Source: [Bacteroides] pectinophilus (GTDB taxonomy: Bacteria > Bacillota > Clostridia > Lachnospirales > Lachnospiraceae). Taken from it: a DNA stretch of 64,000 nt. The stretch spans positions 1,069,001-1,133,000 of the forward strand of contig CP102260.1 of assembly GCA_025146925.1 (NCBI GenBank), read 5' to 3'. Below the pieces are notes generated by a model, which was given only the letters and a program-made list of their open reading frames with translations, was not told the origin of the DNA and did not search any database. Positions 2,641 through 63,912 of the stretch are shown in pieces (within the stretch, counting starts at the first letter, position 1; each line of letters begins with the position of its first letter). The translations under genes and the position numbers were made by a program.

Positions 2641-3222
2641 ATGAGTTTAGTACCTTATGTCATTGAGCAGACCAGTCGTGGTGAGCGTTCTTATGATATT
2701 TATTCACGCCTGTTAAAGGACAGAATTATATTTCTCGGAGAAGAAGTGACAGATGTGTCTGCAAGTCTTATTGTAGCACAGCTCCTTTTCCTCGAGTCGG
2801 AAGATCCGGGCAAGGATATTAATTTTTATATTAACAGCCCGGGTGGCTCTGTAACAGCAGGAATGGCAATATACGATACGATGAATTATGTTAAGTGTGA
2901 TGTATCAACAATCTGTATCGGAATGGCAGCCAGCATGGGTGCATTCCTTCTTTCGGGTGGTACAAAAGGCAAGAGACTTGCACTTCCTAACGCTGAGATA
3001 ATGATTCACCAGCCATCAGGCGGAGCGCAGGGACAGGCAACAGACATTAAGATTGTGTCAGATCATATTATTAAGACAAGACACAAGCTGAATACAATCC
3101 TTGCAGCTAACACAGGCAAGCCACTCGATGTGATTGCTGTCGACACAGAGAGAGATAATTACATGAGTGCCCAGGAAGCTGTTGAGTATGGTCTTATTGA
3201 CAGTGTGATTGAGAAGAGATAA
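2641..3222 (+). CDS. clpP: ATP-dependent Clp protease proteolytic subunit
   Basis: A serine peptidase of 193 residues that assembles into the tetradecameric degradation chamber. The catalytic triad is visible as Ser98 (GMAASMG), His123 (MIHQPSGG) and Asp172 (ERDNYMS). The NSPGGSV oxyanion/handle segment is at 65-71. The start has an AGGGAGG ribosome site. It lies 52 bases after tig, with a terminator-like hairpin before clpX. Its partner ATPase ClpX is encoded next door. Confidence 0.97.
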
Positions 3223-3232
3223 ATAAACAGAT

Positions 3233-3285
3233 AAGGACTGGGACAGCATGTGCGTCTATATGCACGGCCGACCGGTCCTTTTTTG
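3233..3285 (+). terminator. Terminator between clpP and clpX
   Basis: AAGGAC-TGG pairs with CCG-GTCCTT and is followed by TTTT. An inner GTGCG...TGCAC stem lies in the loop. It likely ends or attenuates the tig-clpP transcript ahead of clpX. Confidence 0.7.
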
Positions 3286-3313
3286 TCACAATTTGTATAT
3301 TAGGAGGTATCCG

Positions 3314-47561: not shown

Positions 47562-48734
47562 TTAACTGTTGTGTGCTAAAGCCTCGGCTAACTGAGCTCT
47601 GAGTTGGGCTATTACAGCATCCTTTTCATTAAGCTGGGAATTGGCCTCATCAAGCTGGGAATGAGCATCGTTAAGCTGGGAATTGGCCTCATCGAGCTGG
47701 GAATGAGCATCGTTAAGCTGGGAATTGGCCTCATCGAGCTGAGCATTGAACAGATTCAGCCGTTCTTTAACTTCACTAAGTGCTGCCCGTGTGCCATCAA
47801 GTTCAGCTCTGGAAGCTTCAAGCTCAGCCTTGGCATCTTCAGCTTCTTTTGTCATTGTATCAATCATAAGCTTGGTTGTATTCCTGTCAAGTATACGAAG
47901 TTCTTCGGAAAACATATTCATCACCTTCCCTACATCAGTACACATTCTGTAAATAATATCGTAGAGTGGCTTGAAATCAGGATACTTTGTGATGATTTCA
48001 ATAATGCGTTCAGGTGAATCATCACTCAGAAATGTAAGCCATGCCTCTTCGATAGTTTCTATAGGTTTATTGTGCATGTGCTTATGAAAATTGTCAAGTG
48101 ATATGAGAATAAAATCCTGTAACATATCAAGACTGATTCCTGTGTTGAAAGATGTCCTGCCGTAGTGTATATAACATTCCGGTCTGCCGGATAATTCATG
48201 TGGGCTGCGTTCATATAGGACGATAAGGTATACGGTTTTTACATCACGGTATGTAAAATCACGCTTTTTCTCGCTACGGATACGTTTATACTGACGCAGA
48301 AGCATATCAGCAGAATAGCAGGAACAGCGTTGCGCCGGAAACATATAACCTATACGCTGGACTTCTATGTTGGCAACAGAACCATCTTCAAGCTGTACGA
48401 TAATGTCTGTTACAAGAAGAGAAGCCTCATCTGTAATTCGTGTGGTATCATTGGGAAGTACGTGAAGAATGTGGACCTTGCGCCCAAGAATTGTTGTTAG
48501 AAAACCCTCAAGAGGTTCGGGATTGCTTTCAGCATTCATAACTTCTTTAAAGAATGAATCATACATAATCTTAACGCCGCATGCTCCGGAACAAAAGCTT
48601 ATAAATTCATTCTGCTCCTGCTCGTTCCATGAATAGAATATACTGCTGAGACCGGCGTTATTCTTAATCTCATCCATAATCTCATCACGAGACCTGATAT
48701 ATGGAAAGTATTCTTTTAATTCAGACTTATTCAA
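47562..48734 (-). CDS. Rpn-family PD-(D/E)XK nuclease with coiled-coil tail
   Basis: 390 residues. The N-terminal two thirds match the Rpn/PDDEXK transposase-like family. An early FFKEVM segment precedes LVTDIIVQLEDGSVANIEVQ, with the catalytic Asp and E-x-Q, and then the RYSxxM-like CYSADMLLRQY. Family members cut DNA and promote RecA-independent recombination. The C-terminus is a coiled coil built from nearly exact 14-residue repeats (QLDEANSQLNDAHS). The start follows AAAGGAGGA. A palindrome lies in its leader. Confidence 0.85.
   Translation of the reverse strand: MNKSELKEYFPYIRSRDEIMDEIKNNAGLSSIFYSWNEQEQNEFISFCSGACGVKIMYDSFFKEVMNAESNPEPLEGFLTTILGRKVHILHVLPNDTTRITDEASLLVTDIIVQLEDGSVANIEVQRIGYMFPAQRCSCYSADMLLRQYKRIRSEKKRDFTYRDVKTVYLIVLYERSPHELSGRPECYIHYGRTSFNTGISLDMLQDFILISLDNFHKHMHNKPIETIEEAWLTFLSDDSPERIIEIITKYPDFKPLYDIIYRMCTDVGKVMNMFSEELRILDRNTTKLMIDTMTKEAEDAKAELEASRAELDGTRAALSEVKERLNLFNAQLDEANSQLNDAHSQLDEANSQLNDAHSQLDEANSQLNEKDAVIAQLRAQLAEALAHNS
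47631..47740 (-). repeat. 42-bp in-frame tandem repeats in the Rpn gene
   Basis: Units start at 47631, 47673 and 47715 and are almost identical; each encodes 14 residues (two heptads). Copy number can change without a frameshift. Confidence 0.85.
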
Positions 48735-48937: not shown

Positions 48938-49792
48938 TTATATATATTCATCCCTGAATGCTTCGTAGTTTTCAGCAAAGCGTCTGCACATAAGCGATTT
49001 ATTAAGCTCATAATGGAGTACATATTGTGCATACCACCAGTTGATTTCCGATTGGGCAGGGATTCTTCCAAGTATATCTGCAAAAAGAGTATATTTTATC
49101 CAGCGTTTGACGGCTTCCTCTGATTCCTGAAGCCTTTTGGTGAATTCATACCAGTCAAGCTGGCCTGTGCTGAGAAGTTCCACATAAGTGTCTGCATCAC
49201 CGATTTCTCGACCAAGAACAGTCAAAGCATAGCGGTTTACCTCGTATTTTAACTGTTCAGGACTAATAGCTCTATTCATAATGTTGCCTCCTTCAAAGAT
49301 TAAAGAATTGCCTATATCCGAAAAGTGTTCATTGATAGCGAAATAATCATGCCAGTCAGATACGGTTCTGCTCAATATCTCATCACCATACCAATGATTG
49401 TTTTTATATCCGCCATTGCCACGCGTGTCGAGGTGTACGGCGTTACCCATATAGCCAATGCCCTCGCATCCGAGATCCTGTGCGATACAGCATATAATAC
49501 TGCCGGGAATCACGTCATTATCAGAGTAAAATACTATATCCGCAGCCATACCGTAAGCGTGGGCATCCTTATCAAGTCCGCTTATCGAACGGCAATAAGC
49601 TCCAGGTTCCCTGTAACCATCATTTACAGTGGCACTTGAAGCATCGCTCACCCTGAATACCTTTTCGAGCAGATCAATAAGTGCATCGTCAATAAGTACC
49701 TCATCACAGCCGTTACGGGACTGGAATTCGTGCAGCATAAAGTGAGGGGATAATTGTATATCCCCGTCAGAAAAATAATAACTGTTAATCAT
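48938..49792 (-). CDS. M15-type peptidase with DUF4214-like C-terminal domain
   Basis: 284 residues. The N-terminal half is a peptidase M15 fold of the phage endolysin kind, with HAYGMAADIVF and VHLDTRG supplying the zinc-binding His-Asp-His residues. The C-terminal half (about 175-284) reads like DUF4214: LTVLGREIGDADTYVELL, then DILGRIPAQSEINWW. No signal peptide is present. ATG 49792 follows AAAGGAG; the upstream ATG at 49807 lies before that site. It is the last gene of the tail module and may cut peptidoglycan peptides for lysis or for tail penetration. Confidence 0.82.
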   Translation of the reverse strand: MINSYYFSDGDIQLSPHFMLHEFQSRNGCDEVLIDDALIDLLEKVFRVSDASSATVNDGYREPGAYCRSISGLDKDAHAYGMAADIVFYSDNDVIPGSIICCIAQDLGCEGIGYMGNAVHLDTRGNGGYKNNHWYGDEILSRTVSDWHDYFAINEHFSDIGNSLIFEGGNIMNRAISPEQLKYEVNRYALTVLGREIGDADTYVELLSTGQLDWYEFTKRLQESEEAVKRWIKYTLFADILGRIPAQSEINWWYAQYVLHYELNKSLMCRRFAENYEAFRDEYI

Positions 49793-49803
49793 AAAAGCTC
49801 CTT

Positions 49804-50541
49804 TCATCCAACTGCAATAAGCGTCATTGATGTTGAAGAATCAGGTTCACCACGATAAAATGCAGCATTTCCGGAATGGTCCCACTTAAACAAATTTGCA
49901 GTAAATATTCCGGTATTGGTGTCATAACTGTAATCAATTATAAAACGGGTTGTTGAGTCACTGAAGAATGAGTAATTTATCTGACAATACACATTTGTGT
50001 AACCTTTACCTATGTTATATTTAAAAGTATGATTCCAATTCTCATAATGACCATCTTCATCTACGTCATCAGGGTTGGGATAATCATAAAGACTTACAGT
50101 GACAACCTTGTAGTCAGCCTTCCCCTTACTATAGCCGGCATTATACCCGCTCTTGTAGTTGGTGCTTCCGGTGTTGACACGGTTGTCGGCGGCAATAACG
50201 CCCTGTCCGAACTGATAACCTGCCATGAGTCTTACATTATCAGACATGACCTTAAAAGAAGCGTCAGTTGCCGTAGTAACACCCTTATCAGTGATGGCAG
50301 TGGCAACTGTACGTTTGCCGTCACTGACAGATTTTTTTAATTCGGCAATCTCCCTGTTGATTTCTGTAATTGAACCTGATGAGCCGCCGAGCTTCTCTTC
50401 AACATTGGTGCCATCCGAGAAAATGACATCAGAGGCATCGGTTACGAAGGAATATCTGTCATAGTTTCTTGTGCCGTCAGAGCTGGTGTCCTTTAATACT
50501 CTGTAATATTGTCCGTTTTTCTTGTTTTCTGTAAAATTCAT
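49804..50541 (-). CDS. Phage tail-fibre-like protein (short)
   Basis: 245 residues. A short N-terminal part reads NKKNGQYYRVLKDTSSDGT, then a helix (ITEINREIAELKKSV) leads into SDGKRTVATAITDKGVTTAT and a GYNAGYSKGK segment. A beta-rich C-terminal domain follows that could bind a receptor. The SDGK-type domain is shared with the fibre at 51275-52264 and with the secreted protein at 26345-28861. The gene ends just before the peptidase start. Confidence 0.7.
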   Translation of the reverse strand: MNFTENKKNGQYYRVLKDTSSDGTRNYDRYSFVTDASDVIFSDGTNVEEKLGGSSGSITEINREIAELKKSVSDGKRTVATAITDKGVTTATDASFKVMSDNVRLMAGYQFGQGVIAADNRVNTGSTNYKSGYNAGYSKGKADYKVVTVSLYDYPNPDDVDEDGHYENWNHTFKYNIGKGYTNVYCQINYSFFSDSTTRFIIDYSYDTNTGIFTANLFKWDHSGNAAFYRGEPDSSTSMTLIAVG

Positions 50542-50561
50542 ATAAATAAACTCCTTTCAGA

Positions 50562-50891
50562 TTATTCAGATATACTGCCGGATATCCATATGGATATTGC
50601 GGGGTTATCAGGCTGAGAATCTCCGTGGAATGAGATTACTGTTTTTGTAAGTGTTTTAACAAAAAGCTGAGTCTGATAGATTCTGTTTTCCAGCATATTA
50701 AAAAAGCCGGCATCGACAGGTGTGACTGCCGACCGGCTGTTAAGGTATTCATGCGCTTTGGCGTAGCTGCCATTGTTTGTAAGATTATTGTGCTGCCGTG
50801 ATATTCCGATGGTATCAAGGGAGACATCCGATATAAACATAATGTCATCCACAGCCTGCGGATATGCTGAAGTGCTGTTATAACTACTCAT
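50562..50891 (-). CDS. Small tail-module protein, unknown
   Basis: 109 residues from ATG 50891, which follows GGAGGTCTGC and overlaps the previous gene. The sequence MSSYNSTSAYPQAVDDIMF begins it, and ISIWISGSISE ends it. No domain is recognised. A longer frame from 50978 lacks a ribosome site. Confidence 0.65.
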   Translation of the reverse strand: MSSYNSTSAYPQAVDDIMFISDVSLDTIGISRQHNNLTNNGSYAKAHEYLNSRSAVTPVDAGFFNMLENRIYQTQLFVKTLTKTVISFHGDSQPDNPAISIWISGSISE

Positions 50892-51219
50892 GCAGACCTC
50901 CAATCCATACATCACCGGTTTCAATGACCTCCGGCTCAGTATCAGATATTCTGATGCTTTGGCATCTCTTGAGAGCAAGAATCTGTGTGTTACGGATTTC
51001 TTCCTGCAAGGTCATAAGAGTATCATTGCCTACAAGACATGAGTCAAAGAAATCACTGTTTCTTTTTGCGTAGGCGGCTGCCGAATCATACTGTCCGTTC
51101 CGGATGTATTTTCTGTAGGTGTTAATAATACCTGCATTTTCATCAGTGACATCTTTATAGTGCTTAAGAGTAATGAGAGCATCAGGAAAATGACTGTATT
51201 CGTGTGTGTATGCTGCCAT
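50884..51219 (-). CDS. Small tail-module protein, unknown
   Basis: 111 residues with a strong AAGGAGG site. It is mostly helical in the first two thirds (YRKYIRNGQYDSAAAYAKR) and ends IETGDVWIGGLHE. Its stop overlaps the next start (CATGAGTAG). It could be a fibre chaperone or connector, but nothing decides this. Confidence 0.65.
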   Translation of the reverse strand: MAAYTHEYSHFPDALITLKHYKDVTDENAGIINTYRKYIRNGQYDSAAAYAKRNSDFFDSCLVGNDTLMTLQEEIRNTQILALKRCQSIRISDTEPEVIETGDVWIGGLHE

Positions 51220-51274
51220 AAAAAACCTCCTTGATTAGTAATAATTATATTAGTGAATTTTGATGAATAATAAA

Positions 51275-52264
51275 TCATATTGAAAATGTTATTGACCAAT
51301 TTACAAGACGTTCATAGATTCTGGTTGACCATCCGTCATAACGTGGACCTAATTCGATATCCTTCAAAGGCTTGCCATTAATATAAAATACAACATGATA
51401 CAGATCATTTTCTGAATCATCGTCCACCTTTGAGGTATATCCTCCGGTTGTAAGAACTGCCGTACTGTTGGAAGCTTTACCCTGTGTGTAGCCTGAGTTG
51501 TACTGAAGCTTTGAGATAATACCGATATTATCGGTAAGTGTCTGAAATGCCGCATCAGCCGCCGTAGCTTTGCCGTTTTCAGTGATGGCAGCGGCGACTA
51601 AAGCTTTGCCATCACTGACAGATTTTTTTAGTGATGATATGGCATCATTAACGGTCTTCTGAGTTACGGAGCCATCTGTGGCTGAGCCGAGAGAGCTGTA
51701 CAATTTTGATACTCCTGCGGTGCTTGAGCTGGCGGCAGAGTAGACAGTGTTGGCATCAGGACCCCATACGGCAGTGCCGTCAGCACTCCATCGAAGAATC
51801 TGACCGGCTTTGCCTCCGCTTGGAATATGCCGGTATCCGGATGTTGCGGGATGTGAATATACACAGGTGTCAGTTCCGTTAATCAGGATATTACCATTTA
51901 CAGAAGAATTCCGGATATTAGTAGCATCTGTGCGTGCGTGAGCAGACAGACTGTGTGTGTACGCCGCATCATAACAGGATTTCAGTGCATTGGTAAGATT
52001 GTTGTCGGATAGTGCCTTGCCGTCTGTTTTGTCAACCTTGGTACTGCTTATAACACCAATACGGGTGTCGACATCAACAAGCTGCTTGTCAACATCATCA
52101 AAGTGTTTGTCAACATCATTAAAGTGCTGCGGGATTCCTGCAATAGCATTGCTGATATCAGTAATTGATGAGTCGATAATGTCTGCATTCTCATTGAAGA
52201 GCGATATATCATATTTGTCACTGATATCCGGTTTGTTAAGTTTGAGATTTGTGGTTGTTAGCAT
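51275..52264 (-). CDS. Phage tail fibre protein
   Basis: 329 residues. The N-terminus MLTTTNLKLNKPDISDKYDI is typical of tail fibres. It then has VDKTDGKALSDNNLT and AYTHSLSAHARTDATN, found in many fibre shafts, a GKAGQILRWSADGTAVWG knob-like turn, and the SDGKALVAAAITENGKAT domain. The C-terminal ~60 residues are likely the receptor-binding tip. It lies downstream of the baseplate genes in tail-module order. Confidence 0.82.
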   Translation of the reverse strand: MLTTTNLKLNKPDISDKYDISLFNENADIIDSSITDISNAIAGIPQHFNDVDKHFDDVDKQLVDVDTRIGVISSTKVDKTDGKALSDNNLTNALKSCYDAAYTHSLSAHARTDATNIRNSSVNGNILINGTDTCVYSHPATSGYRHIPSGGKAGQILRWSADGTAVWGPDANTVYSAASSSTAGVSKLYSSLGSATDGSVTQKTVNDAISSLKKSVSDGKALVAAAITENGKATAADAAFQTLTDNIGIISKLQYNSGYTQGKASNSTAVLTTGGYTSKVDDDSENDLYHVVFYINGKPLKDIELGPRYDGWSTRIYERLVNWSITFSI

Positions 52265-52287
52265 TAAGATTGCACCTTCTTTCTTTT

Positions 52288-54045
52288 TTAACGTGATTTT
52301 ACAAGAGCAAGCTTCGCATGTGTGAAGCGGGAGAGCCTTGCATGGGAATAGGATGAGAGAACTCTGTATGTTCCGGATTCTGAATTGTCCTCATATAGCG
52401 GATAGAATGTATACATGCCGACAGTTGTAGTTCCGTTGGCAAAATCGAGGGATACGGATTTTGTTATATATTGTGAAGGAACATTATATTGGCGGCTTGT
52501 GTACTCTATCTTCATATTCTCCTTAAGCCAGGGGATGATTGTGTTAAGGGTGATGGTAATATCATCCGTAAGCCTGCTGTTTTTCCAGTTCTCATACCGA
52601 GCGCGTTCAAGTGCGAGAGAGTCAGAGGTGATATTGTCATATTCCTGACCCGACATAACGGCACATCTTTCGCCGATACGCTGTACAGTGAAGGGTGAAT
52701 CGGGAACTATAGTCAATTCGACATTGCTGCAATTATAGACCGTCTCAAAATATTCGGAGCTGTACAGGTCAAGCACTGTTCCGTCCGGAGCAGTGTAACC
52801 GTCCTCAATGACAGAGCCGTCTGTTAAAACATTAACGGCATGGGGCTGCCATTGACCGAGAAGGTACAGCATGGTTACAAATGAGGCGGTATCCGTATCG
52901 TAGCGGCGCCTGCAACGGAAGGTATAGACATTTCCGGCAAGGCAGGCACATGCACTGATTGGATTATCAGTGTTTTCATCACATACCGGTACTATGCCAA
53001 GACCATTAATATTCACCTTCTGCGCGGCAGTATTATCCTTATCAACACGGAAAGAGATAATGTCACCTGTGTAGTATGATGTCTTGTAGTTGTCTATTTC
53101 GACGTTATAGCAGCCGTCCAAGGAAGAGCATTTTTCGGAATAAAAGTCAGTGTCAAAGGTTCTTCCCCACACCTCACATACATTGCGCACACAGGACAGG
53201 TCAGAGGAGATGCTTTCAGATATGAGAACCTCATTTATATCGGAATCATCCATGATGACCGGGTCACTGTAGCAGTCGGGAACAGGCTGTACTACAAATG
53301 TTCCGTTTTCGTCAAAAGCGGCATCATAGCCCGGATATAATTCAATCATGTCGGTTATGACAGAGCTTATGGAAGAACCGGATGAGTACTCAAGGTCATA
53401 CGGCAGGCAGTTCCAGCGTGGATTATTGATACGATATTGCTGATAATCCGTGTTGTGTTCCCGGAATCCACGGTACTCACCAATGTCACATACGAGATAA
53501 TTGCGTATTTTTCCGAAAGTTGATATTGCTAAGATGAGGGAGTCGCGGATAGTGTTGTACCGGTCATCCTTTACACTGCCGTCAGAATCCTCGGCATATG
53601 CGGGGAATACCGTCTTGTATGCGCCTAAGGCTCCGTTTATCGTACCATCGAGCGTCACATACAGATCACTGCAATTAATCGTTAAATTATCAGATGAGCT
53701 GTCATATGACAGGTTAGTGCCGGTAATCAGAAAAATGCCCTGATTATACCATGTGAACTGCTCCTGTCTCGGAGTGCGCACACCAAGCCTCAGCAGGCAG
53801 GTGCGGCCTGCCCAGCCGCTTATCCGTGTGCCGAGATTATAGTCAGTAAGGGACGGTGTGATTGTAATGCTGTATGTGCGCCGCACAGAGGATGAACTGT
53901 CAATGTTGAGAGTTCCTGCATTGGCAATTCCGGTCAGATCGTCAAAGACAGAATTATCATCATTCAGTATGAGTAATTTTACTGACAGCTCAAGCCATCT
54001 TGAAAATGCAAGCTGTCTGTCAGCAGATGTTATTGTATAATTCAT
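52288..54045 (-). CDS. Baseplate/tail hub-like protein (DUF5048-like)
   Basis: 585 residues. The N-terminal ~130 residues (SVKLLILNDDNSVFDDLTGI, YSITITPSLTDY) and the middle (SSVITDMIELYPGYDAAFDENG) resemble DUF5048-type phage baseplate proteins. It is rich in Tyr, Asp and beta strands and has no enzyme motif or signal peptide. It starts four bases after the gene upstream. Assignment rests on pattern and context; a tail-spike role is also possible. Confidence 0.6.
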   Translation of the reverse strand: MNYTITSADRQLAFSRWLELSVKLLILNDDNSVFDDLTGIANAGTLNIDSSSSVRRTYSITITPSLTDYNLGTRISGWAGRTCLLRLGVRTPRQEQFTWYNQGIFLITGTNLSYDSSSDNLTINCSDLYVTLDGTINGALGAYKTVFPAYAEDSDGSVKDDRYNTIRDSLILAISTFGKIRNYLVCDIGEYRGFREHNTDYQQYRINNPRWNCLPYDLEYSSGSSISSVITDMIELYPGYDAAFDENGTFVVQPVPDCYSDPVIMDDSDINEVLISESISSDLSCVRNVCEVWGRTFDTDFYSEKCSSLDGCYNVEIDNYKTSYYTGDIISFRVDKDNTAAQKVNINGLGIVPVCDENTDNPISACACLAGNVYTFRCRRRYDTDTASFVTMLYLLGQWQPHAVNVLTDGSVIEDGYTAPDGTVLDLYSSEYFETVYNCSNVELTIVPDSPFTVQRIGERCAVMSGQEYDNITSDSLALERARYENWKNSRLTDDITITLNTIIPWLKENMKIEYTSRQYNVPSQYITKSVSLDFANGTTTVGMYTFYPLYEDNSESGTYRVLSSYSHARLSRFTHAKLALVKSR

Positions 54046-54048
54046 AGC

Positions 54049-54966
54049 TTATCCTCCGTAACTCCAATATTCAGAATCAATGTCAATGAGATCCGCATCG
54101 TAGAGGTCACATTCATTCAGGCAGTCACCGGACTCAAACCAGTTAAATGAGGTCATACGGTGCTGCCAGTGGTCACCCTCATTATCACTCACAGAGCCGC
54201 CATCGACATTTATAAGCCACATACGGCCATCACTGACTTTAAGTATCTTGGGTCTGCCGTCAGTAAGAAAATCCATCAGCTCGTGCCTGTATGAGCAGGA
54301 ATCATCGGGATGGAAGGCATGCCGTGCCGTATCATATCGGCAGAAAAATGCTTCAACTGAGCCGGAATCGTAATTGACCGAGGAATTGTATATTGCGCGC
54401 GGATATCTGTTACGAAGTGATGTCTGGCATATAAGGGAATTCTTTCTGGAAGTGCTGCATTTGATATCAAGAGTTGTACCGAACATTCTGTTTTTATCAA
54501 AAATGTATATGCCGTCAAAATCAGAATGTACGGACACAATGTAATAATTGCCCTCTGCACCGTTGAGAATAGGCACAAGAGCATATTCATAGTCTGTATT
54601 ACCGGCATTGAAAAGGTCAATCCCGGCAAACTGAAGATCCTCCTTTGAATCAATATTGCGGACACATACGGTAGTCCAGTTAAAGGTACCGTATTTGCGG
54701 CGCCTGACGGCAAGCTGGCTGATTGTGGACAGAGAAAAATCAATGTTGCCGGCATTGATTGATTTTTCATAATCGGCGCAAAATACCGTATCTGTGTCCC
54801 AGATAAGGGAAGGAGGGTCAATAAGCGGCATTGCAGTGCTGCGTGATGCATATATGGAATCATATCTGCCTGTGCCAAGCTCCAGACCTGTCAGTTCCTC
54901 AGTCGGGACAACATACGGAAAATAAGAATAATCAGAGCCAAGCAGTAATAAACCTGAAATAAACAT
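54049..54966 (-). CDS. Tail-module protein, possibly distal-tail type
   Basis: 305 residues, beta-rich, acidic, with many aromatic residues. No domain could be recognised with confidence. It shares a stop/start overlap with the fibronectin-like protein upstream and sits four bases before the hub-like gene, so it is likely a structural tail component. Confidence 0.55.
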   Translation of the reverse strand: MFISGLLLLGSDYSYFPYVVPTEELTGLELGTGRYDSIYASRSTAMPLIDPPSLIWDTDTVFCADYEKSINAGNIDFSLSTISQLAVRRRKYGTFNWTTVCVRNIDSKEDLQFAGIDLFNAGNTDYEYALVPILNGAEGNYYIVSVHSDFDGIYIFDKNRMFGTTLDIKCSTSRKNSLICQTSLRNRYPRAIYNSSVNYDSGSVEAFFCRYDTARHAFHPDDSCSYRHELMDFLTDGRPKILKVSDGRMWLINVDGGSVSDNEGDHWQHRMTSFNWFESGDCLNECDLYDADLIDIDSEYWSYGG

Positions 54967-56039
54967 TATATTTCACCTCCTGTTGCAACGTACAGGCTGT
55001 ACAGATTATTTTTCCGCCGGACATAGACAGTCCGCATGGCATCCTTATCGTAAAAGTCTGAGTAAAGAATGACAGGTGGAAGAACACCGTCGGATATGCT
55101 GAGACGGTAATGGATTCTGCCTTCATATTCCAGACTGCTGAGAGTTATGCGGCTGCCTGCTACGGAGGAATCTGTGTCCGGTGAGCTGTAGAGGCATACC
55201 GATGTACCTCCCATGAAGCGTACGGCAAATGTAAAATCAGACGTAATGCTGAAACCCGTGTTATAGTAAACGGTGCCGCTTATTATGTTAAGTATGCCGT
55301 TATCAATTACATATTCACCTGACGAATGCCCCTGCACATCGATTATATTAGTGCTGTACTTTACATAGCCGGCATCCCTGTCACAGACGGCATTAAGTGC
55401 CGAGCAGGACGCAGGGGTGCTGTAATATACACTGAATTCAATCAGCGGGGAGTGTATACATACATTGTCAATAGATATTACGTCAATGGAGAAGTAATAT
55501 GTGCAGTCACTTATAAGGGACCTTAAAGGACATGTGATAATATTGCCGTCCCCGGCAGACTGATATTTTGAACCGCTTGAATATACCGGTGTCTTATATG
55601 AATCATACAGCGTGTAGGAATATTCACTGATCGGACGGTTTTCAGCCTGCGAATATGTTACCGTGACGTTGAAGCCCGATACATTAAGAATGGTCGAGCC
55701 GTCAGTCTCAAGCCCCGTGAATGTAAGAGCCGGGGCAGAGTAGCAGGAAAAATACTGCCGGTATGATATCTCTGACGGATTGCCGACTGAATCATACAGG
55801 ATTATTACAGCGTAGTATGAATGGCTGTTTTTCAGCGTATTGGCAGGAATCTGCTGCCTGAGCCGTATGCTTTCGCAATATTGTGTGAAAACAGGCTGGC
55901 TGCTTTCGGAAGAGGCATCTGATTCATATATGTACAGCCGGCTTGCATAGGGCTGTATGCCCTGCCAGCAGAATTCTATATCTGCCGGCATTGATGCATC
56001 AAATACATCTATTTTGTTGATGGTGGGTCTGTTAACCAA
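54966..56039 (-). CDS. Tail protein with fibronectin-III-like repeats
   Basis: 357 residues. At least two Fn3-like segments are visible: ADIEFCWQGIQPYASRLYIYE with SYYAVIILYDSVGNPSE, and SEYSYTLYDSY with YYFSIDVISIDNVC. A LamG/jelly-roll-like end follows (TSDFTFAVRFMGGTSVCLYSS). Such domains decorate tails and bind surfaces. It lies between the small OB-like gene and the 305-residue protein. Confidence 0.62.
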   Translation of the reverse strand: MVNRPTINKIDVFDASMPADIEFCWQGIQPYASRLYIYESDASSESSQPVFTQYCESIRLRQQIPANTLKNSHSYYAVIILYDSVGNPSEISYRQYFSCYSAPALTFTGLETDGSTILNVSGFNVTVTYSQAENRPISEYSYTLYDSYKTPVYSSGSKYQSAGDGNIITCPLRSLISDCTYYFSIDVISIDNVCIHSPLIEFSVYYSTPASCSALNAVCDRDAGYVKYSTNIIDVQGHSSGEYVIDNGILNIISGTVYYNTGFSITSDFTFAVRFMGGTSVCLYSSPDTDSSVAGSRITLSSLEYEGRIHYRLSISDGVLPPVILYSDFYDKDAMRTVYVRRKNNLYSLYVATGGEI

Positions 56040-56061
56040 TTTTTATGTCCTCCTTAGAAAA

Positions 56062-56340
56062 TTAGTGCGGCTGGCGGGGTTTTACAGCGATTATAAAGCG
56101 CTGCTTATAATCGCCGTCCGGTATGCATACAATGACGCGGGTACCCGGAGAAAAAGTCATTGCAGTACCGTTGGGAAGCTCATATTCCTGTCCGTCAATA
56201 TTGCCGTAATAGCAGCCTTCCGCATTAATGCGGCTTATAATAACTGTTTTAAAAAGAGTGCGTTCTTTTTCAAAACGGTTAATAATGCGGAAAAACTGGT
56301 CTATAAGTGTAAATAAACCTTCTGAAGTCTTATCTTTCAT
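56062..56340 (-). CDS. Small OB-fold-like baseplate protein
   Basis: 92 residues. An N-terminal helix is followed by five short strands (IISRINAEGCYYGNIDGQEY, LPNGTAMTFSPGTRVIVCIP) with the look of small OB-fold tail proteins next to tape measures. Context, not a clear family match, supports the call. Confidence 0.5.
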   Translation of the reverse strand: MKDKTSEGLFTLIDQFFRIINRFEKERTLFKTVIISRINAEGCYYGNIDGQEYELPNGTAMTFSPGTRVIVCIPDGDYKQRFIIAVKPRQPH

Positions 56341-56365
56341 AAATCCTCCATTCTTCGTAAGAGTA

Positions 56366-59300
56366 TCAGCGGTAATTGAGCCGCTGTGTCACATAGTTGG
56401 GAACTATGCTGAGTATTGCTTCACCGACACGCTCTGCGTCATCAACCTCATTAAGCGTTATCGCACCGCTTTCAATATTGACAACAGGTGCGGACGAATA
56501 GCAGGAGATATCGCTGATATCTGATACAATAGCCGGTGCGTCAGGAATATCATGCAGATTCACTGACTGGACACTGAAGCCTGTGCTGTCCGGATGTACT
56601 GAAACTGTATCAAGGGCAGCAAGCTGTTCAAGGGCGTTACGGGCTTCGTCAGCTTTGGAGCGTATATCGTCAAGAGAGCCGCAGATGCTTGAGGATGATG
56701 CTGTTGTACTGTCAGCAAGTGAGAGCAGGGCGCTGCTTCCAATTTCCATCAGACTGTTAAGGGAATCTTCACCGGTCTGTCCGGAGGATTGCAGGACATT
56801 GCCCATCAGGGCTATCTCATCCGATGAGGCATCCGTTACATACTGAAGCTGTTCCTGTACTCTTGTATATTCATCGCCGAACTGTGTGAGCAGCTCCTCA
56901 TCAAGGTTCAGGACACTGCTTTGCCATTCCTGCCCCAGCAGCATGGATGCATATATCTGATTCTGTGAATCCTCAAACTGTTGAGGAAGGGCAGCCCATC
57001 TGTCGCGGTACTGTGTAAGTGCCTGTATCTGTGCGTCAATCCCTGACGTTATGCTGTCGAGTTCTTCCTTTAGCGATGATATGGAGGAGCTGATTGCCGC
57101 ACTCTTGTCATCAATGGCATTGATGCTGTCATCAAGAGAGTCAATCTGTTCCTGAACTGCTGCACGCTTCTGCTCGTCCAAAGCCTCATCAAGGGCTTCT
57201 GCGGCATCAGATACGGCAGAGGAATCATTGCGCCATATCATCTGGCCGTTTACCATAACGCGCATTGAATTCTGGTTCTCTGCCCGTGCAAGCTCATACT
57301 CCTTTTTTCGGAGATCAATGGAACGCTGTCGGGCCTCATTAGCCTTATTAATAGCGTTGAGCTGTTCCTCAAGCTCTTTCTTCTGGCCTTCAATGGCGGT
57401 CTTCTGTTCAAGCAGTGCAGCCTGCTCATCTTCAAGAGCCTCGATCCTTGCATTGTATTCAGCCTCCACGGCAGTTTTCTGAAGCTCAAGTGCTGACTGC
57501 TGCTCGTCAAGACATCCGGTAACCGCTTTGGCTGCTTTATCCATGCTGTTTAGCTGTTCATTAAGGGAATCCGTATAGAACTGCTTAAGGCCTGTATATA
57601 TCTTCTCAGCATATGAGCGGTAGTCATCAAGATACTGCTCCTGATTGGCAAAATATTTTTCGTTAAGGACGTTAAGTGCGGCATAATATTTGTCCTCACT
57701 TATAAGTCCCATGTTGTGATGATGCTCAAGCAGTGCGAGCTGGCGGTCAAATTCCTCACGCCATGTATCAGTGACATTGCCGGCAGCATCGGAAGGGTAA
57801 CCGGAGTCATCCTTAACCGTATTGTTATCCTGTACATTGTTCCATGAAAGATCCATTGAAGAAGCAATAGCCTGATATGCAGTATTGTGAAGCTCACGCG
57901 CAGGCTCTGTTATCTCCTTGAGACACTCCTTTTTCCGGTCAAATAATGTATTCAGCCGTTCAGCTTCTTCGGGATCATATAGTGCGAGGTCGCTGTCATC
58001 AAAGCTCATTGACAATATGCCTGACGCAGAATCGACAATGATGTTAAAGTAATCTGCCCATTCTTTGCCAAGCTCAGCCCTGAGGGCATCATCAATGGTT
58101 TTCTTGGCATCCTCTAAGGACTTCCAGTTAAGTACATCGTTACCGTATACAGCGGCAAGCTTATCAAAGAGAACAGGATAATTAGTTTTGATGGAATTGA
58201 AGAAATCCCTGTCAGCAGCCGATTTGCTTAAAACAGAATTAATATATTGCCTGCTGTCGCCGGCGTATATATCAGCCAGACTGTTGAAAAGCTCTTCTGA
58301 TGACATCAGACCCTGTGAGAACTTCAGGACTGCATCGGTTGCTTCCGGAAATTGCTGAAGTATCTGTGAGAGAAATGAACTGTTCAGAGAGCCTGATCCG
58401 TCAAGCAGGCTTCTTATTGATGAGAGCGTGGAGGCCTCAGCGTTAAGATCTGCAAGAGTGGCAGAGGAGAGCTTATTGGTGGATTCTTTAAAAAGTGAGG
58501 ATACGCTGCTTAAAGATTCGGATACGGCAGCAGTACCGCTGCCTGCATTCTTGAGGTACTCAAGAAACATATCGCGGGCAGATTTGCCGTCTTCAAGAAT
58601 AAGACCTGATTCCTCAAGCTTTTTATTGAGCCTGTCAATCGAATCGGCTGAGGTATCAGCTTCTCCGCTCAGAAGGGCGCTGATATCTGTGGCGAAATCA
58701 GAATTGCCGGCTATTGATTCAAATATATGCTTGTTCCATGTGGAAGCTTTGCCGGTTATCTCATACATATACTTTTCAGCGGCATTAATGCTGTTCCACA
58801 GCGCCTGATCCGCTGTATTGTCAAAGGTTCCGTCAGACTTCATGAGCTTGATAAGATTTTCCTTGTAATCCGACAGTTCGGATATTGTGTCAAAGAATAC
58901 AGTATTAAGCGAGTCGGTAATATACCGTGTATTTTCCTCCAACATGGATATGGCAGCTCTATTGGCAGGACTGTCATCTTTGGAACTCAGCTCTTGGAGC
59001 TTCTGCCGGTTGATTGCATAGCCGACAATAAGACTGCTTATATCAGAGCCTTTTTCATTAAGGTAAGCCGTGGCATCGGGAACATCATGGGAGCTGAGAT
59101 AATCACGGGCAATATTTTCCGAGTCAGACAGCTTATCCATATCGAATTCCTTGGAAAATGTCTTTCTGTTTTGCTCTGACAGCTCCTTTGCTTCAGTCTT
59201 GACCTTTTCATTCTGAAGCTCTATGCTTTCGCGGAGAAGGTTGTTCCGTTCCTTAAGGCGCGCTATTTCAAGTTCCTGATCCGAAGAGAGGGACTTAGAG

Positions 59301-59914
59301 CCTGACAGTGTTTCAAGTTCATTTATGCGGCTGATATTGGAGCTTAGTTCGCTGTTATAGGAATTGAGCACAGAGGAAGCTTCATCAAAACTGTTGCTGA
59401 CCTCTTTCAGCTTATCCTTTGCAATATCGAGGGCATGCGTGTAGTTGTGGTATACAGCTATGCCGCCGGCTACAACGGCAGTTAACGCTGATATGGCAAT
59501 CGTCGGAAGATTGGCAGCCGCAAAGCTCTTCAGACTGAGCGCAAGTCCTTTAAGTGGGTCCGAAAGCCCTTTAAAGACGCTGCCGCCACCTTTTAAAGTG
59601 CCGATAAGTCCGTCAGAGGAAGCCCTGAACTCATCAGAGGCTGATGCGGCAGCCTTTTCTGCTTCAGCAATACGGTTGAGCTCAGTTATTCTGGAGAGCT
59701 CAGAGGTGGTGGATTGGAGAAGGTCGCCTATGTAACCGCGCGCTGTGAGAATACTTTTAATTGATTTGTCATCAAGTGTTGATTCGGATATGGCGGATTT
59801 CAGAACGTCAGAGGTGTATTTTTCCCCTATAGAATCTAAAATATTGCCAGACTTAGAGACATTATTTATATCATTCAGAGCATTGTTAATCTGGGCAAGA
59901 GATTTTAATTGCAT
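56366..59914 (-). CDS. Tape measure protein, C-terminal part
   Basis: 1182 residues, highly helical, with a membrane-like segment near 150-170 (AISALTAVVAGGIAVYHNYT) and coiled coils at ~170-250 and ~790-960. Its start MQLKSLAQINNALNDINN has no ribosome site and reads as mid-protein. It continues the end of the ORF at 62117-63250 (…SFIKNFD), so the two were probably one ~1560-residue gene. The intervening ~2.2 kb interrupts it exactly between those residues. Whether a joined product is still made is unknown. Confidence 0.85.
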   Translation of the reverse strand: MQLKSLAQINNALNDINNVSKSGNILDSIGEKYTSDVLKSAISESTLDDKSIKSILTARGYIGDLLQSTTSELSRITELNRIAEAEKAAASASDEFRASSDGLIGTLKGGGSVFKGLSDPLKGLALSLKSFAAANLPTIAISALTAVVAGGIAVYHNYTHALDIAKDKLKEVSNSFDEASSVLNSYNSELSSNISRINELETLSGSKSLSSDQELEIARLKERNNLLRESIELQNEKVKTEAKELSEQNRKTFSKEFDMDKLSDSENIARDYLSSHDVPDATAYLNEKGSDISSLIVGYAINRQKLQELSSKDDSPANRAAISMLEENTRYITDSLNTVFFDTISELSDYKENLIKLMKSDGTFDNTADQALWNSINAAEKYMYEITGKASTWNKHIFESIAGNSDFATDISALLSGEADTSADSIDRLNKKLEESGLILEDGKSARDMFLEYLKNAGSGTAAVSESLSSVSSLFKESTNKLSSATLADLNAEASTLSSIRSLLDGSGSLNSSFLSQILQQFPEATDAVLKFSQGLMSSEELFNSLADIYAGDSRQYINSVLSKSAADRDFFNSIKTNYPVLFDKLAAVYGNDVLNWKSLEDAKKTIDDALRAELGKEWADYFNIIVDSASGILSMSFDDSDLALYDPEEAERLNTLFDRKKECLKEITEPARELHNTAYQAIASSMDLSWNNVQDNNTVKDDSGYPSDAAGNVTDTWREEFDRQLALLEHHHNMGLISEDKYYAALNVLNEKYFANQEQYLDDYRSYAEKIYTGLKQFYTDSLNEQLNSMDKAAKAVTGCLDEQQSALELQKTAVEAEYNARIEALEDEQAALLEQKTAIEGQKKELEEQLNAINKANEARQRSIDLRKKEYELARAENQNSMRVMVNGQMIWRNDSSAVSDAAEALDEALDEQKRAAVQEQIDSLDDSINAIDDKSAAISSSISSLKEELDSITSGIDAQIQALTQYRDRWAALPQQFEDSQNQIYASMLLGQEWQSSVLNLDEELLTQFGDEYTRVQEQLQYVTDASSDEIALMGNVLQSSGQTGEDSLNSLMEIGSSALLSLADSTTASSSSICGSLDDIRSKADEARNALEQLAALDTVSVHPDSTGFSVQSVNLHDIPDAPAIVSDISDISCYSSAPVVNIESGAITLNEVDDAERVGEAILSIVPNYVTQRLNYR

Positions 59915-59936
59915 ATATAACTGATAATGATATAAT
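59909..59936 (+). promoter_or_regulatory. Promoter of the first zinc-ribbon copy, at the insert edge
   Basis: TTGCAT (59909-59914), 16-base spacer and TATAAT (59931-59936) with an extended TG. Part of the -35 box lies in tape-measure sequence. Confidence 0.5.
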
Positions 59937-59973
59937 TATATTAATGATAAATAAGTAGGAGGCGTATAAAATT

Positions 59974-60408
59974 ATGACACCACAGCAAATATATGATGAT
60001 TTTAATAAATTGGAAAGCGATTCAATGGGGGGATATATTTGGAAGGAAAATCCAAGGACGGGAGAGGCAATATATAATGAAATTAAGGAATTATATTATG
60101 CTGGCAAGGAAGAGGAAGCTGTTCAGTATATAAAAGAAGTTTATGAATGCGAAGAGGAGGTTGCACGTCAGGTATTCGATATATTTAAAAGCAAAACACA
60201 TAAGGTAACTCCCCTGATGAAAGCAGAGGTCGAAGCGTATGAGAGAGCATGCAGAAACAAGAACGTCCCAAAGTGTCCTACATGTGGCTCAACCAATATA
60301 AAAAAGATATCATCAATGAGCAAGGCAGTGGGAATGCTTACACTCGGAATCCTTGACGCGGATATCCACAGAACCTTCTATTGTAAGAACTGCGGATATA
60401 GGTGGTAG
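59974..60408 (+). CDS. Zinc-ribbon protein, tandem copy 1
   Basis: 144 residues. The N-terminal helical half begins MTPQQIYDDFNKLESDSMGG and contains YYAGKEEEAVQYIKEVYECE, a short helical-repeat or L7/L12-like unit. The C-terminal zinc ribbon has CPTCGS and CKNCGYRW around an SSMSKAVGMLTLGIL segment. There is no signal peptide. It is the first of three adjacent copies and has its own extended -10 promoter and a GTAGGAGG ribosome site. Function is unknown; such ribbons occur in phage and gut Clostridia proteins. It is transcribed opposite to the tail genes. Confidence 0.75.
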   Translation: MTPQQIYDDFNKLESDSMGGYIWKENPRTGEAIYNEIKELYYAGKEEEAVQYIKEVYECEEEVARQVFDIFKSKTHKVTPLMKAEVEAYERACRNKNVPKCPTCGSTNIKKISSMSKAVGMLTLGILDADIHRTFYCKNCGYRW

Positions 60409-60542
60409 GTATCACGTATAGACCGGTTGTATTACGATAATTTACAGTCACAGGGTAATTACAAGGTGCAGGGTAATGTGAATTACGGTGTAACGATAAA
60501 TGATACAGTGCGATGACAAATAGGTAGGAGGCGTATAAAACT

Positions 60543-60980
60543 ATGACACCACAGGAAATACATGATGATTTTAGTAAATTGGAAAGAGATCCAATGGGGG
60601 GATATATTTGGAAGAAAAATCAAAAGACGGGACGTCCAATAGCTACAGAAATTCTTGAGTTGTATTATGCTGGCAAGGAAGAGGAAGCTGTTCAGTACAT
60701 AAAAGAGCTTTATGAATGTGAGGAAGAGGTTGCACGCGAGGTTTTCAAAATATATAAGAGAAAAATTGGAGAGCCACCAACTCCTCTGATGAAAGCAGAG
60801 GCAGCAGCATACTTTGGTGGACTGTATGAAAAGAACGTCCCAAAGTGTCCTACATGTGGCTCAACCAATATAAAAAAGATATCATCAATGAGCAAGGCAG
60901 TAGGAATGCTTACACTCGGAATCCTTGATGCGGATATACACAGAACCTTCTATTGTAAGAATTGCGGATATAGGTGGTAG
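60543..60980 (+). CDS. Zinc-ribbon protein, tandem copy 2
   Basis: 145 residues with the same plan as copy 1: MTPQEIHDDFSKLERDPMGG start, a helical half, then FGGLYEKNVPKCPTCGS and the CKNCGYRW ribbon. It differs from copy 1 mainly between residues 15 and 95. The last ~50 codons are the same apart from silent changes. A repeated leader with a good ribosome site precedes it. Confidence 0.75.
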   Translation: MTPQEIHDDFSKLERDPMGGYIWKKNQKTGRPIATEILELYYAGKEEEAVQYIKELYECEEEVAREVFKIYKRKIGEPPTPLMKAEAAAYFGGLYEKNVPKCPTCGSTNIKKISSMSKAVGMLTLGILDADIHRTFYCKNCGYRW

Positions 60981-61114
60981 GTATCGCAGTATAGTCCGGT
61001 TGTATTACGATAATTTACAGTCACAGGGTAATTACAAGGTGCAGGGTAATGTGAATTATAGCGTAACGATAAATGATACAGTGCGATGACAAATAAGTAG
61101 GAGGCTCATAAATT

Positions 61115-61519
61115 ATGACACCACAGGAAATATATGATGAAATTAATTATCTGAAGGAAAATCCTAAAACAGGAAATGCAATATTTGACGAAGTTATTGC
61201 TTTATACTATGCAGACAAAGAAGAGGATGCCGTTCAGCATATAAAAGAAGTTTATGATTGTGAAGAGGAACTTGCACGTCAGACATTCGATATATTTAAA
61301 AGCAGAATAAGTAAGCCAACTCCCCTGATGAAAGCAGAGGCAGCAGCATACTTTGGTGGACTGTATGAAAAGAACGTCCCAAAGTGTCCTACATGTGGCT
61401 CAACCAATATAAAAAAGATATCATCAATGAGCAAGGCAGTGGGAATGCTTACACTCGGAATCCTTGACGCGGATATCCACAGAACCTTCTATTGTAAGAA
61501 CTGCGGATATAGGTGGTAG
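61115..61519 (+). CDS. Zinc-ribbon protein, tandem copy 3
   Basis: 134 residues; the most divergent N-terminus (MTPQEIYDEINYLKENPKTG, lacking the GGYIWK piece of the other two). The FGGLYEKNVPKCPTCGS segment matches copy 2. The zinc-ribbon end equals copy 1 at the DNA level, pointing to gene conversion or recent duplication. The downstream repeat stops soon after its stop codon. Confidence 0.75.
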   Translation: MTPQEIYDEINYLKENPKTGNAIFDEVIALYYADKEEDAVQHIKEVYDCEEELARQTFDIFKSRISKPTPLMKAEAAAYFGGLYEKNVPKCPTCGSTNIKKISSMSKAVGMLTLGILDADIHRTFYCKNCGYRW

Positions 61520-62116
61520 GTATCGCAGTATTTCTTAGTATCGTATTATCTGTATTACAGGTTATTAATATTCTTTGGTAAAATCTGAATTTTACTCGCC
61601 GGATGTAACACGCATCCGGGCATATTACTGAAATTCATAATCGCAATATGCACTATGCATTATAAGCAGATGCTGCATTATGGCCGCAGCCTGCTCAGAG
61701 GATGGGTATGTCTGTGGGGATTGCTCTCTGTGCGCTGGCACAAGACTCTTCATTACTATATACAGTCATGCACATATGTGCAGAGTGCCGTCCTGCTCGT
61801 TGTCTGTTGTCAGGATATCCTGTGGCACACAGGCGTCTCAAGGGTCTCCCCCTGATTACCATATACCGGCATAATCAGTTATTTCTGCTTTCGCAACCCG
61901 ATGAATGAATATTCAGGGGTCTGATATGCTCTGAGAGTTTCAAGCATTTACTCCTCCATGTAAGTTTATACTCCGTTAATTGTGTTATACAGAGTTTTTA
62001 ATAAAGAATCCCATGTATCCGCAGACTTGTTCACAGCGCCATTATGCTGTGTCCTTATCTGCGATTGACCTGATAAAATCTCTTGCCGGATTTTATATGA
62101 TTGTCACCTTAAAAGG
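61520..62116. other. ~600 bp without a recognised protein gene
   Basis: This stretch has no convincing long ORF on either strand. The minus strand shows several possible stems and one 22-codon ORF with a strong ribosome site (61879-61947). It looks richer in structure than the surroundings but does not match tRNA, known riboswitch or group II 5' (GTGYG) patterns that I can recognise. It may be a structured RNA or the remains of a mobile element. Confidence 0.5.
61879..61947 (-). CDS. Possible 22-residue small protein with strong ribosome site
   Basis: On the minus strand GGAGGAGTAA stands directly before ATG 61947 and is followed by 22 codons and TAA. The peptide starts MLETLRAYQTPEY and ends FIGLRKQK. 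It may be a leader peptide, a small protein or the broken start of a lost gene. There is no homologue I recognise. Confidence 0.35.
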   Translation of the reverse strand: MLETLRAYQTPEYSFIGLRKQK

Positions 62117-62122
62117 TCAATC
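62063..62122. other. Nested and competing hairpins at the insert end
   Basis: GATTGACCT (62063-62071) pairs with AGGTCAATC (62114-62122) and encloses ATAAAATC/GATTTTAT (62073-62080, 62089-62096). The arm at 62114 can pair instead with GATTG-TC-ACCTT (62099-62110). The outer arm includes the last Asp codon of the tape-measure N-half. Confidence 0.6.
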
Positions 62123-63250
62123 AAAATTCTTTATAAAGCTTGCGAGACCTGCGGCACCTGCACTGAGTGCGATGGCACCCTTGCCGCCGATAACGTCTGT
62201 TACGGATTCGACAACAGACAGAAGCTTGGTGAGCGCGTTGACAGCGTCAGCAATATCATCTGTATCGATAAGATTGCCTGCTGTGGCGTCCCATGCAGCG
62301 CTGAATTTGTTAACAGCCTTGTTAAGCTCAGATGATGTCGCGGCAGAGCTGTCAATTAAAGAAACAGCAGATGCCCGGTACAGTGCCAGATTATCGCTGT
62401 AGGACTTCATATTGGACATGAAAGCTGTGAGCGAGGCGGAATCCGTGCCGAGAATACCGGCAATGCTGTTCTTTGAAGAGCTGTCAAGAGTGTTGAATTG
62501 GTCAGCAAGCTCGCTGATTAGCTGTATTGGGGATCTGAGTGCATTACTCCCCTCCGATATTTCTGTAATTGATATGCCTACAGAATTCAGGGCTGAGATT
62601 ATGGAAGGGTCGGTAAGATTACTGAGAGTGTTAAAAATGCTGTTAAGCATGCTGCCGGCTGCTTTGCCGGACATTGCTGTACCGTCCAGCGCGGTGGCTG
62701 CCAATGCAGAGAATTCATCTGCGCTTATACCGCACTGTGCTGCTGATGCGGCGGCAAGGATAGTGGCTTCAGCCATATCCTGAAGTCCTGCCGAAGTGCT
62801 GTTTATGATGCTGTTCTGACCGTCAAGAATATCAATAAGACTGTCCACGCCGTCATGCAGTGTGTAGGCAGAGTTGGCGGCAAGAATATAACCGGAGCTC
62901 ATTTCCGATGACATTCCGGCAGAATTCTGCAATGCGGCACACAGGTCAGTTAGCTGTGCGGCATTGGCTGCACCGGAATCATAGATAGCTCCGGCAGCGG
63001 CAACATAATCAGATGCGTGCTTTCCGTACCGTGCTGCGGCGTTGGCGGAAGCAACGCTGATTTCATTAAGCTCCTTTGAAGTAAAGGATGACGTGCCGGC
63101 AACCTTTGAGAGAGCAGAGTTGTATTTCTCAAGCTCTGACGTTGCCGCAACAAGCCCTGATGTCAGTACACTGAGGAATTCCGAAAATGCTTTTGAAGTA
63201 TTTCCGTTACTGAGACTCAGGATAATTGAGAGTAATGAGTTAAAATTCAT
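62117..63250 (-). CDS. Tape measure protein, N-terminal part
   Basis: 377 residues matching the N-terminal TMP core of siphophage and myophage tape measures: SANAAARYGKHASDYVAAAGAIYDSG, AAQCGISADEFSALAATALDG and the IIGGKG-like VIGGKGAIALSAGAAGLASF near the end. The start follows AGGAGG. The frame runs into TGA just after KNFD where the insert begins. The other part lies at 56366-59914. It follows the XhlA-like gene. Confidence 0.85.
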   Translation of the reverse strand: MNFNSLLSIILSLSNGNTSKAFSEFLSVLTSGLVAATSELEKYNSALSKVAGTSSFTSKELNEISVASANAAARYGKHASDYVAAAGAIYDSGAANAAQLTDLCAALQNSAGMSSEMSSGYILAANSAYTLHDGVDSLIDILDGQNSIINSTSAGLQDMAEATILAAASAAQCGISADEFSALAATALDGTAMSGKAAGSMLNSIFNTLSNLTDPSIISALNSVGISITEISEGSNALRSPIQLISELADQFNTLDSSSKNSIAGILGTDSASLTAFMSNMKSYSDNLALYRASAVSLIDSSAATSSELNKAVNKFSAAWDATAGNLIDTDDIADAVNALTKLLSVVESVTDVIGGKGAIALSAGAAGLASFIKNFD

Positions 63251-63303
63251 GTAGTATTTAACCTCCTATCGTATAAATGCATAGATATAACTGCCGGACA
63301 ATG

Positions 63304-63579
63304 TCAAAAGACACCGGGAAGGACATTGGCAAGAAGAAAGCCTGCAATGCCTGCGGCAAACAGCCAGATAAGCTTGTCTGAAAGCGAGTCCCAGCGTGCC
63401 TTTGTCTCAATTGCGGGGCGGTTTTCAAGAGTAGTGACCTTATCAGCAAGTTCACGTTGTGAATCCCTTATATCATGGATATCTGTTTTCAAATCTTCTA
63501 TGCGAAGTTCTATAGAACGGCAGTGACTGTCAACATCCTGAAGCTTGACAGCCATTTCCATAAATTGTTTATCATCCAT
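63304..63579 (-). CDS. XhlA-like coiled-coil membrane protein
   Basis: 91 residues. A coiled coil (about 10-55; LEIRIEDLKTDI-type heptads) is followed by one C-terminal hydrophobic helix (LIWLFAAGIAGFLLANVLPGVF). This is the plan of XhlA hemolysin-like lysis proteins, which act with a holin at the cell membrane. It lies between the holin-like gene and the tape measure, an unusual place for lysis genes. Confidence 0.72.
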   Translation of the reverse strand: MDDKQFMEMAVKLQDVDSHCRSIELRIEDLKTDIHDIRDSQRELADKVTTLENRPAIETKARWDSLSDKLIWLFAAGIAGFLLANVLPGVF

Positions 63580-63597
63580 ATATGAATACCTGCCTTG

Positions 63598-63912
63598 TCA
63601 TATATTGGTAGCCGTTATATTTACACCAAGTATTTTACCGAGGGATATCATGGCTTTTCCCACATACAGACCTATAGCGGAGGTCATGATAAACATGGGT
63701 GTGACACCGGTTGCTGATAAGTCGGTGGCATCGAAGCAGTAGGCTGTTCCGATGAACATAAATGTTACGATTGCTGCCTTAAGGAGTCCTGATGCCAGCA
63801 ATGACAATTCAAAATGCATCCGGCGTGTACCGATATTGTAGTACATTCCCGCAGCAATATTCATTGTGATTGCTATAGCAAGTGTTGGCAGCAGTGATAT
63901 AAGCTCTTTCAT
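63598..63912 (-). CDS. Phage holin-like membrane protein
   Basis: 104 residues with three hydrophobic helices (about 8-27, 35-58 and 70-92) and short polar loops, matching the small phage holin family (Cph1/holin_4_1 type) that forms pores in the inner membrane. The start follows GGAGG. The frame upstream overlaps its ATG by ATGA, so it is not the first gene of the operon. Confidence 0.7.
   Translation of the reverse strand: MKELISLLPTLAIAITMNIAAGMYYNIGTRRMHFELSLLASGLLKAAIVTFMFIGTAYCFDATDLSATGVTPMFIMTSAIGLYVGKAMISLGKILGVNITATNI

Follow-up and report, generated by a model that had tools for sequence, protein, structure and literature searches.

A probable mobile group I-type intron carrying antisense zinc-ribbon genes in a phage-type tape measure gene

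In the window, as we call the whole 64,000-nt stretch of DNA analysed here, which comes from a gut-type bacterium, the gene for a phage-type tape measure protein (TMP) is interrupted by an insert that is very probably a mobile group I-type intron within a working gene. This reading is built on comparison, namely of boundaries, guide pairing, covariation, frame restoration, recurrence and uninterrupted homologues. The TMP gene is probably functional rather than broken, because many related bacteria show the same arrangement, and we infer from these sequence comparisons that splicing takes place, autocatalytically.

The split tape measure gene and its surroundings

The TMP gene lies on the minus strand and is broken at 62120/59911, with 2,208 nt in between. 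Its N-terminal open reading frame (ORF; 62117-63250, minus strand) ends ...GLASFIKNFD-TGA and is preceded by a clear AGGAGG Shine-Dalgarno site (AGGAGGTT; 63260..63267, minus strand, read from the sequence); its product, P0002, is identified as a TMP by matches to PF10145 (E=6.7e-12) and phrog_4211 (E=2.5e-18). The C-terminal ORF (56366-59914, minus strand) reads ATG-QLKSLAQINN, and no Shine-Dalgarno-like sequence is read 5' of this ATG (...ATTATCAGTTATATATG/CAA, the slash marking the boundary). Expressed as exons, the two halves are both open, with exon 1 (62120..63250, minus strand) contributing 377 codons up to ...SFIKNFD and exon 2 (56366..59911, minus strand) contributing 1181 codons from QLKSLAQINN onward. 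The putative group I-type intron itself (59912..62119, minus strand; 2208 nt) begins TGACC and ends ..ATATATG, so that its 5' boundary reads GAT/TGACC (62120/62119) and its 3' boundary TATATG/CAATTA (59912/59911). It contains three tandem plus-strand ORFs together with about 600 nt, adjoining exon 1, in which no convincing gene is seen. The original prediction had described an ORF ending SFIKNFD-stop, a second beginning QLKSLAQINN without a ribosome site and about 2.2 kb of opposite-strand genes between them, and our reading of the ORFs and of their upstream sequence bears this out, the genes being three zinc-ribbon genes within the 2,208 nt.

It had further been proposed that the joined halves give one continuous tape measure, with a search for uninterrupted homologues as a check, and single-ORF relatives that align across the junction were indeed found. 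A profile of the spliced TMP segment matches 42 of the 397 genomes of the host family, which is very probably Lachnospiraceae. One long ORF runs through the junction in several of these homologues, of which three align well (L125, L126 and L130) and three more weakly (L127-L129), all being distant Lachnospiraceae homologues and not empty-site siblings. Among the near relatives inspected, the TMP gene is split in most.

The surrounding element (window positions 48938-63912 and L024:1-7804) carries tail, endolysin and regulatory genes. Because no portal, terminase or capsid gene was named among the ORFs of these two intervals, the element may be tail-only (tailocin-like) and not a full prophage. 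It also encodes an RdRP-family polymerase (857 aa; PF05183, E=2.7e-17; DFDGD motif) at L024:3483-6053 (minus strand), reminiscent of YonO, an RNA polymerase of phage origin. A sigma-like protein is encoded at L024:6259-6837 (plus strand). At the edge of the element, an ORF with an in-frame tandem repeat (DEANSQLNDAHSQL) occupies window positions 47562-48734 (minus strand); we take its product to be Rpn/PD-(D/E)XK-like.

Boundaries, internal guide and RNA core

The ten fully bounded related introns come mostly from Lachnospiraceae genomes. In all ten, the last base of exon 1 is T, the last base of the intron is G and removal of the intron restores the reading frame, over intron lengths of 1,030 to 2,208 nt that leave 0, 1 or 2 modulo 3. 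This count is not blind, because conserved sequence was used in the choice of boundaries (in the window and L053, the 3' boundary was set by the position of the conserved QLK), and the rank of the guide pairing is a more independent test of the boundaries.

An intron guide was first hinted at by a site close to the insert's 5' end, which matches the start of exon 2 over 14 nt in inverted orientation and has a second match to the end of exon 1. The end of exon 1, UUUGAU, pairs with the candidate internal guide for P1 (62064..62069, minus strand; GTCAAT), placing a U.G at the splice site, and of the 22 nt that open exon 2, 16 pair with the adjoining P10-like guide segment (62070..62091, minus strand; 5'-ATCCGGCAAGAGATTTTATCAG-3'). 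Among related introns, the U.G formed at the 5' splice site between guide and exon 1 end is conserved in 11 of 11, and the P1 guide pairing includes a compensatory C-G to A-U change in two. Across eleven introns, exon 2 can pair over 16-21 of its first 22 nt with the part of the guide immediately 5' of the P1 guide, its base 1 pairing with the guide's first G. The order of the two guide parts fits group I, with exon 1 pairing (P1) and then exon 2 pairing (P10), and a single guide would form the two in that succession.

When about 2,700-3,300 positions per intron are scored against the guide, the true exon 2 start takes the top score in 10 of 10 introns, although the window's start ties with 7 others and its P10 match (16/22) is the weakest in the set. 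Guides and exons score 217 when matched and 193 +/- 6.6 when exons are shuffled among introns (3 in 20,000 as high), and an intron of genome G378 whose sides lie on two contigs has the same pairing, at 21/22. The guide strand also pairs with the intron segment just 3' of exon 1 (helix 3 of the 61-pair model described below), a pairing that looks like the exchange of P1 extension for P10 in Tetrahymena.

The core of the intron is matched by covariance model R1 at 61643..61814 (minus strand) with 123 bits, the window being among the sequences from which that model was built. Within it we read, all on the minus strand, a conserved, Q-like core segment (61785..61803; ACAACGAGCAGGACGGCAC), an R-like element with P3' (61700..61721; ATCCCCACAGACATACCCATCC), a P8 hairpin (61659..61699) in which 8 of 11 pairs are compensated over 14 introns, and an S-like element with the P7 3' strand (61650..61658; GCATAGTGC). 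In a 61-pair model of 14 introns, 95.5% of cells hold standard pairs, compared with 35-50% in slid versions of the model, a comparison that favours the model since its helices were drawn from the same alignment as was counted. Compensated pairs number 28 as against 10.1 in shuffles that disregard sequence relatedness, none of the 500 reaching 28; these compensated changes, spread over seven helices, are a stronger point than the fraction of paired cells. Within the window's subfamily P8 covaries; P3 and P7 hardly vary, and covariation is therefore no test of either helix there. In sister introns P7 does covary (GACUA/UAGUC, GAAUA/UAUUC and GAGCA/UGUUC).

The P7 pair equivalent to G264-C311, the guanosine site, reads G.G in 17 of 17 introns including the window, with bulged alternative registers possible, and is G-C in most of nine sister introns. 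Given this G.G, classical guanosine-initiated splicing may be altered in the window's subfamily. By our own reading, R- and S-like group I motifs are present in L045, L037, L039 and L042, and a Q-like motif also in L045. Searches of the window and its relatives against Rfam returned no intron family at threshold and no match to group II models (domain V). The group I model RF00028 has no match on the window and stays below threshold on all introns tested (18 bits, a weak match below the cut-off, on the L037 intron), but this test is of low sensitivity, because it also misses L045 despite readable R and S motifs.

Recurrence, mobility and antisense cargo

Homologues of the cargo protein occur in 31 of the 397 genomes of the host family, and the layout around them repeats: the N half of TMP is followed by a non-coding stretch, a zinc-ribbon gene on the opposite strand and the C half of TMP. 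The split is more than chance, since the same split with related intervening sequence is present in many genomes. A search with a 19-nt conserved motif gave 12 further loci, two of which are contigs of earlier loci; another two (L049 and L050) were set aside, the TMP/guide arrangement being absent from both. The core covariance model matches 15 of the 397 family genomes and, in an order-wide sample, 5 of 392 genomes, four of these belonging to the same family. Some of its matches lie at other TMP sites, where exon 1 has only about 100 codons. The TMP halves gave no match in single-protein scans of viral and genome collections, nor did a viral scan with the spliced TMP alignment, and phage records yielded distant TMP matches only, or none. 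In genome G420, neighbouring tail-module copies (L026 and L027) each have an interrupted TMP gene, and two of the copies are nearly identical.

At four further loci (L037, L039, L042 and L045), the split in TMP falls at about the same point of the protein. The window's model does not match the introns of L037, L042 and L045, nor one of the two in L039, and antisense zinc-ribbon genes are again found in most of these introns; the zinc-ribbon cargo may be associated with several ribozyme lineages.

Exon sequence next to the insertion site is unusually uniform. Compared over seven to eight introns, exon 1 is 98% identical in its last 18 nt (100% at third codon positions), as against 46% for the preceding 57 nt in an ungapped comparison (29% at third positions), and exon 2 is 89% identical in its first 21 nt as against 51% for the next 60. 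This flanking identity suggests mobility of the intron and would fit either a fixed insertion target or homing with co-conversion of the flanks. The earlier proposal of a mobile cassette that entered the gene precisely is upheld as to a precise, mobile insert, but the cassette is better described as the intron itself, with the passenger genes inside it.

The three cargo genes of the window lie on the plus strand, antisense to the TMP gene, and encode proteins of 134-145 aa: the zinc-ribbon protein P0001 (59974..60408; 144 aa) and two paralogues that are 79% (60543..60980) and 78% (61115..61519) identical to it. The proteins have a C-terminal CPxC...CxNCG zinc ribbon in common and a helical, variable N part. 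All ten fully bounded introns carry an antisense cargo ORF, with the zinc ribbon readable in eight; in the other two the ribbon is truncated (L047) or masked (L052). Four cargo proteins (the window's three and the one of L026) showed no HNH, GIY-YIG or LAGLIDADG endonuclease family. Searches of cargo proteins against family libraries named no family, PADLOC gave no system above noise, and a predicted structure with a mean pLDDT of 78, weak in the region of the zinc loop, had no convincing fold match. The zinc-ribbon cargo is probably dispensable for splicing, because two related split TMP genes (L138 and L143) carry lipoprotein-like antisense genes in its place. We infer that the cargo consists of moron-type genes kept within an essential gene.

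In a related genome, about seven antisense cargo-type ORFs follow one another in tandem within a TMP intron (L077, from about 3364 onward), which suggests repeated cargo duplication inside introns. In the TMP intron of L045, a GA-cis RNA (Rfam RF02987; 47 bits, above threshold) adjoins the zinc-ribbon gene in antisense orientation (L045:9862-9944, minus strand); it might be linked to the cargo genes, or represent an intron helix read on its reverse strand.

Proposed splicing, its alternatives and known systems

Under the group I-type reading, the TMP mRNA would carry the intron as RNA. The guide near the intron's 5' end would pair with the last nucleotides of exon 1 (P1, with the U.G at the splice site) and, once cleavage has occurred, with the start of exon 2 in an extended P10. 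Exon ligation would then give ...SFIKNFD^QLKSLAQINN... (...AATTTTGAT joined to CAATTAAAATC...). The three zinc-ribbon genes would be passengers on the other strand, moron-like and expressed independently of the tail operon.

The original prediction had left a choice between a dead tail, restoration by excision or RNA splicing, and cooperating halves; RNA splicing is now strongly favoured and the other options are disfavoured. If the insertion had disrupted the TMP gene and left its halves as pseudogene fragments, the want of a ribosome site at the only ATG from which the window's C half could start would be accounted for, but the openness of both halves (377 and 1181 codons) and the occurrence of the same split, a covarying RNA structure and a preserved frame (10/10) across many genera make a dead tail gene highly unlikely. 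It is extremely unlikely that the insert is instead a DNA element excised precisely on phage induction, in the manner of skin or the nifD element: we recognised neither a recombinase nor an integrase in the window's insert and see no direct repeat on its flanks, the repeats that touch the exons are inverted and run from guide to exon, and the covariation favours an RNA structure, even though precise boundaries and unusually conserved flanking exon DNA would suit such an element.

Least probable of all is a cooperation of the two halves as separate proteins. An ATG does stand directly 5' of exon 2 in the window and several relatives, but in L026, L047 and L056 the 3' boundary reads ACG/CAA and no in-frame start follows the upstream stop before exon 2 begins, so that the C half could not be translated from the boundary there (the next possible exon 2 starts are at codons 127, 25 and 105, respectively), and uninterrupted homologues exist. 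As to intron class, the sub-threshold RF00028 result and the altered guanosine-site pair could point to group II or another kind of intron; against this, no group II model matched in Rfam, and the 5' U.G, the terminal G, the P1/P10 order of the guide and the R and S elements of sister introns fit group I, and we regard a different class as extremely improbable too.

A more far-reaching proposal, which we consider unlikely, is that these introns form a natural group I-type clade with departed chemistry, guide-directed spread by reverse splicing and antisense genes. The G.G in place of the guanosine-site G-C would then mean a first step by hydrolysis or with another cofactor, and the guide, covering about 6 nt of exon 1 and up to 22 nt of exon 2, would specify the target. 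Spread would be RNA-guided, by reverse splicing without an intron-encoded endonuclease, and independent genes would occupy the opposite strand.

For the group I-type reading as such, several implications follow. Lachnospiraceae TMP genes are often split in this way, and annotation would label functional genes as broken or overlook one of their halves. With such an arrangement a phage could carry passenger genes within an essential late gene and still keep that gene. Testable predictions on ribozyme chemistry and intron mobility follow from the long P10-like guide and from the altered guanosine site, and a group I-type family invisible to the libraries suggests that many more introns are overlooked.

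Introns in TMP genes are already known as such from vibriophage ICP1, in which introns interrupt TMP and terL, their removal from mRNA was demonstrated by RNA-seq, RT-PCR and Sanger sequencing, and intron contents vary between nearly identical exons, with HNH homing endonucleases as cargo (PMC10448857). The window shares with ICP1 a phage TMP gene interrupted by an intron, splicing here being read from sequence comparison, and differs from the ICP1 HNH introns in that its cargo lies on the opposite strand and the proteins tested match no nuclease family (PMC10448857). Cluster J mycobacteriophages LittleE and BAKA have group I introns in structural genes, and that of LittleE, in the capsid gene, contains a bottom-strand ORF for a putative homing endonuclease (PMC3706429). 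A structural-gene location, an exon 1 ending in U and an intron ending in G are common to these introns and ours, whereas zinc-ribbon genes, the TMP location and the long P10-like guide set ours apart (PMC3706429). The nuclear group I intron Didymium S956-2 likewise has a gene on the strand opposite the ribozyme, but this is a homing endonuclease gene in eukaryotic rDNA (PMC3679873), as compared with zinc-ribbon cargo in a TMP gene here. In the Tetrahymena ribozyme, P10 comprises 5 bp (exon +1 to +5), and G264-C311 in P7 forms the guanosine site (PMC10020454). P1 with its U.G, the apparent exchange between P1 extension and P10, and P7 have counterparts in our introns, which, unlike Tetrahymena, can pair at 16-21 of 22 positions and read G.G at the guanosine-site equivalent (PMC10020454). 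Our searches of open-licence papers turned up no report of this Lachnospiraceae intron family, of antisense non-endonuclease cargo or of a natural P10 of this length. What looks new relative to these known systems is the antisense cargo other than homing endonucleases, the long P10-like guide, the G.G at the guanosine site and the invisibility of the family to Rfam.
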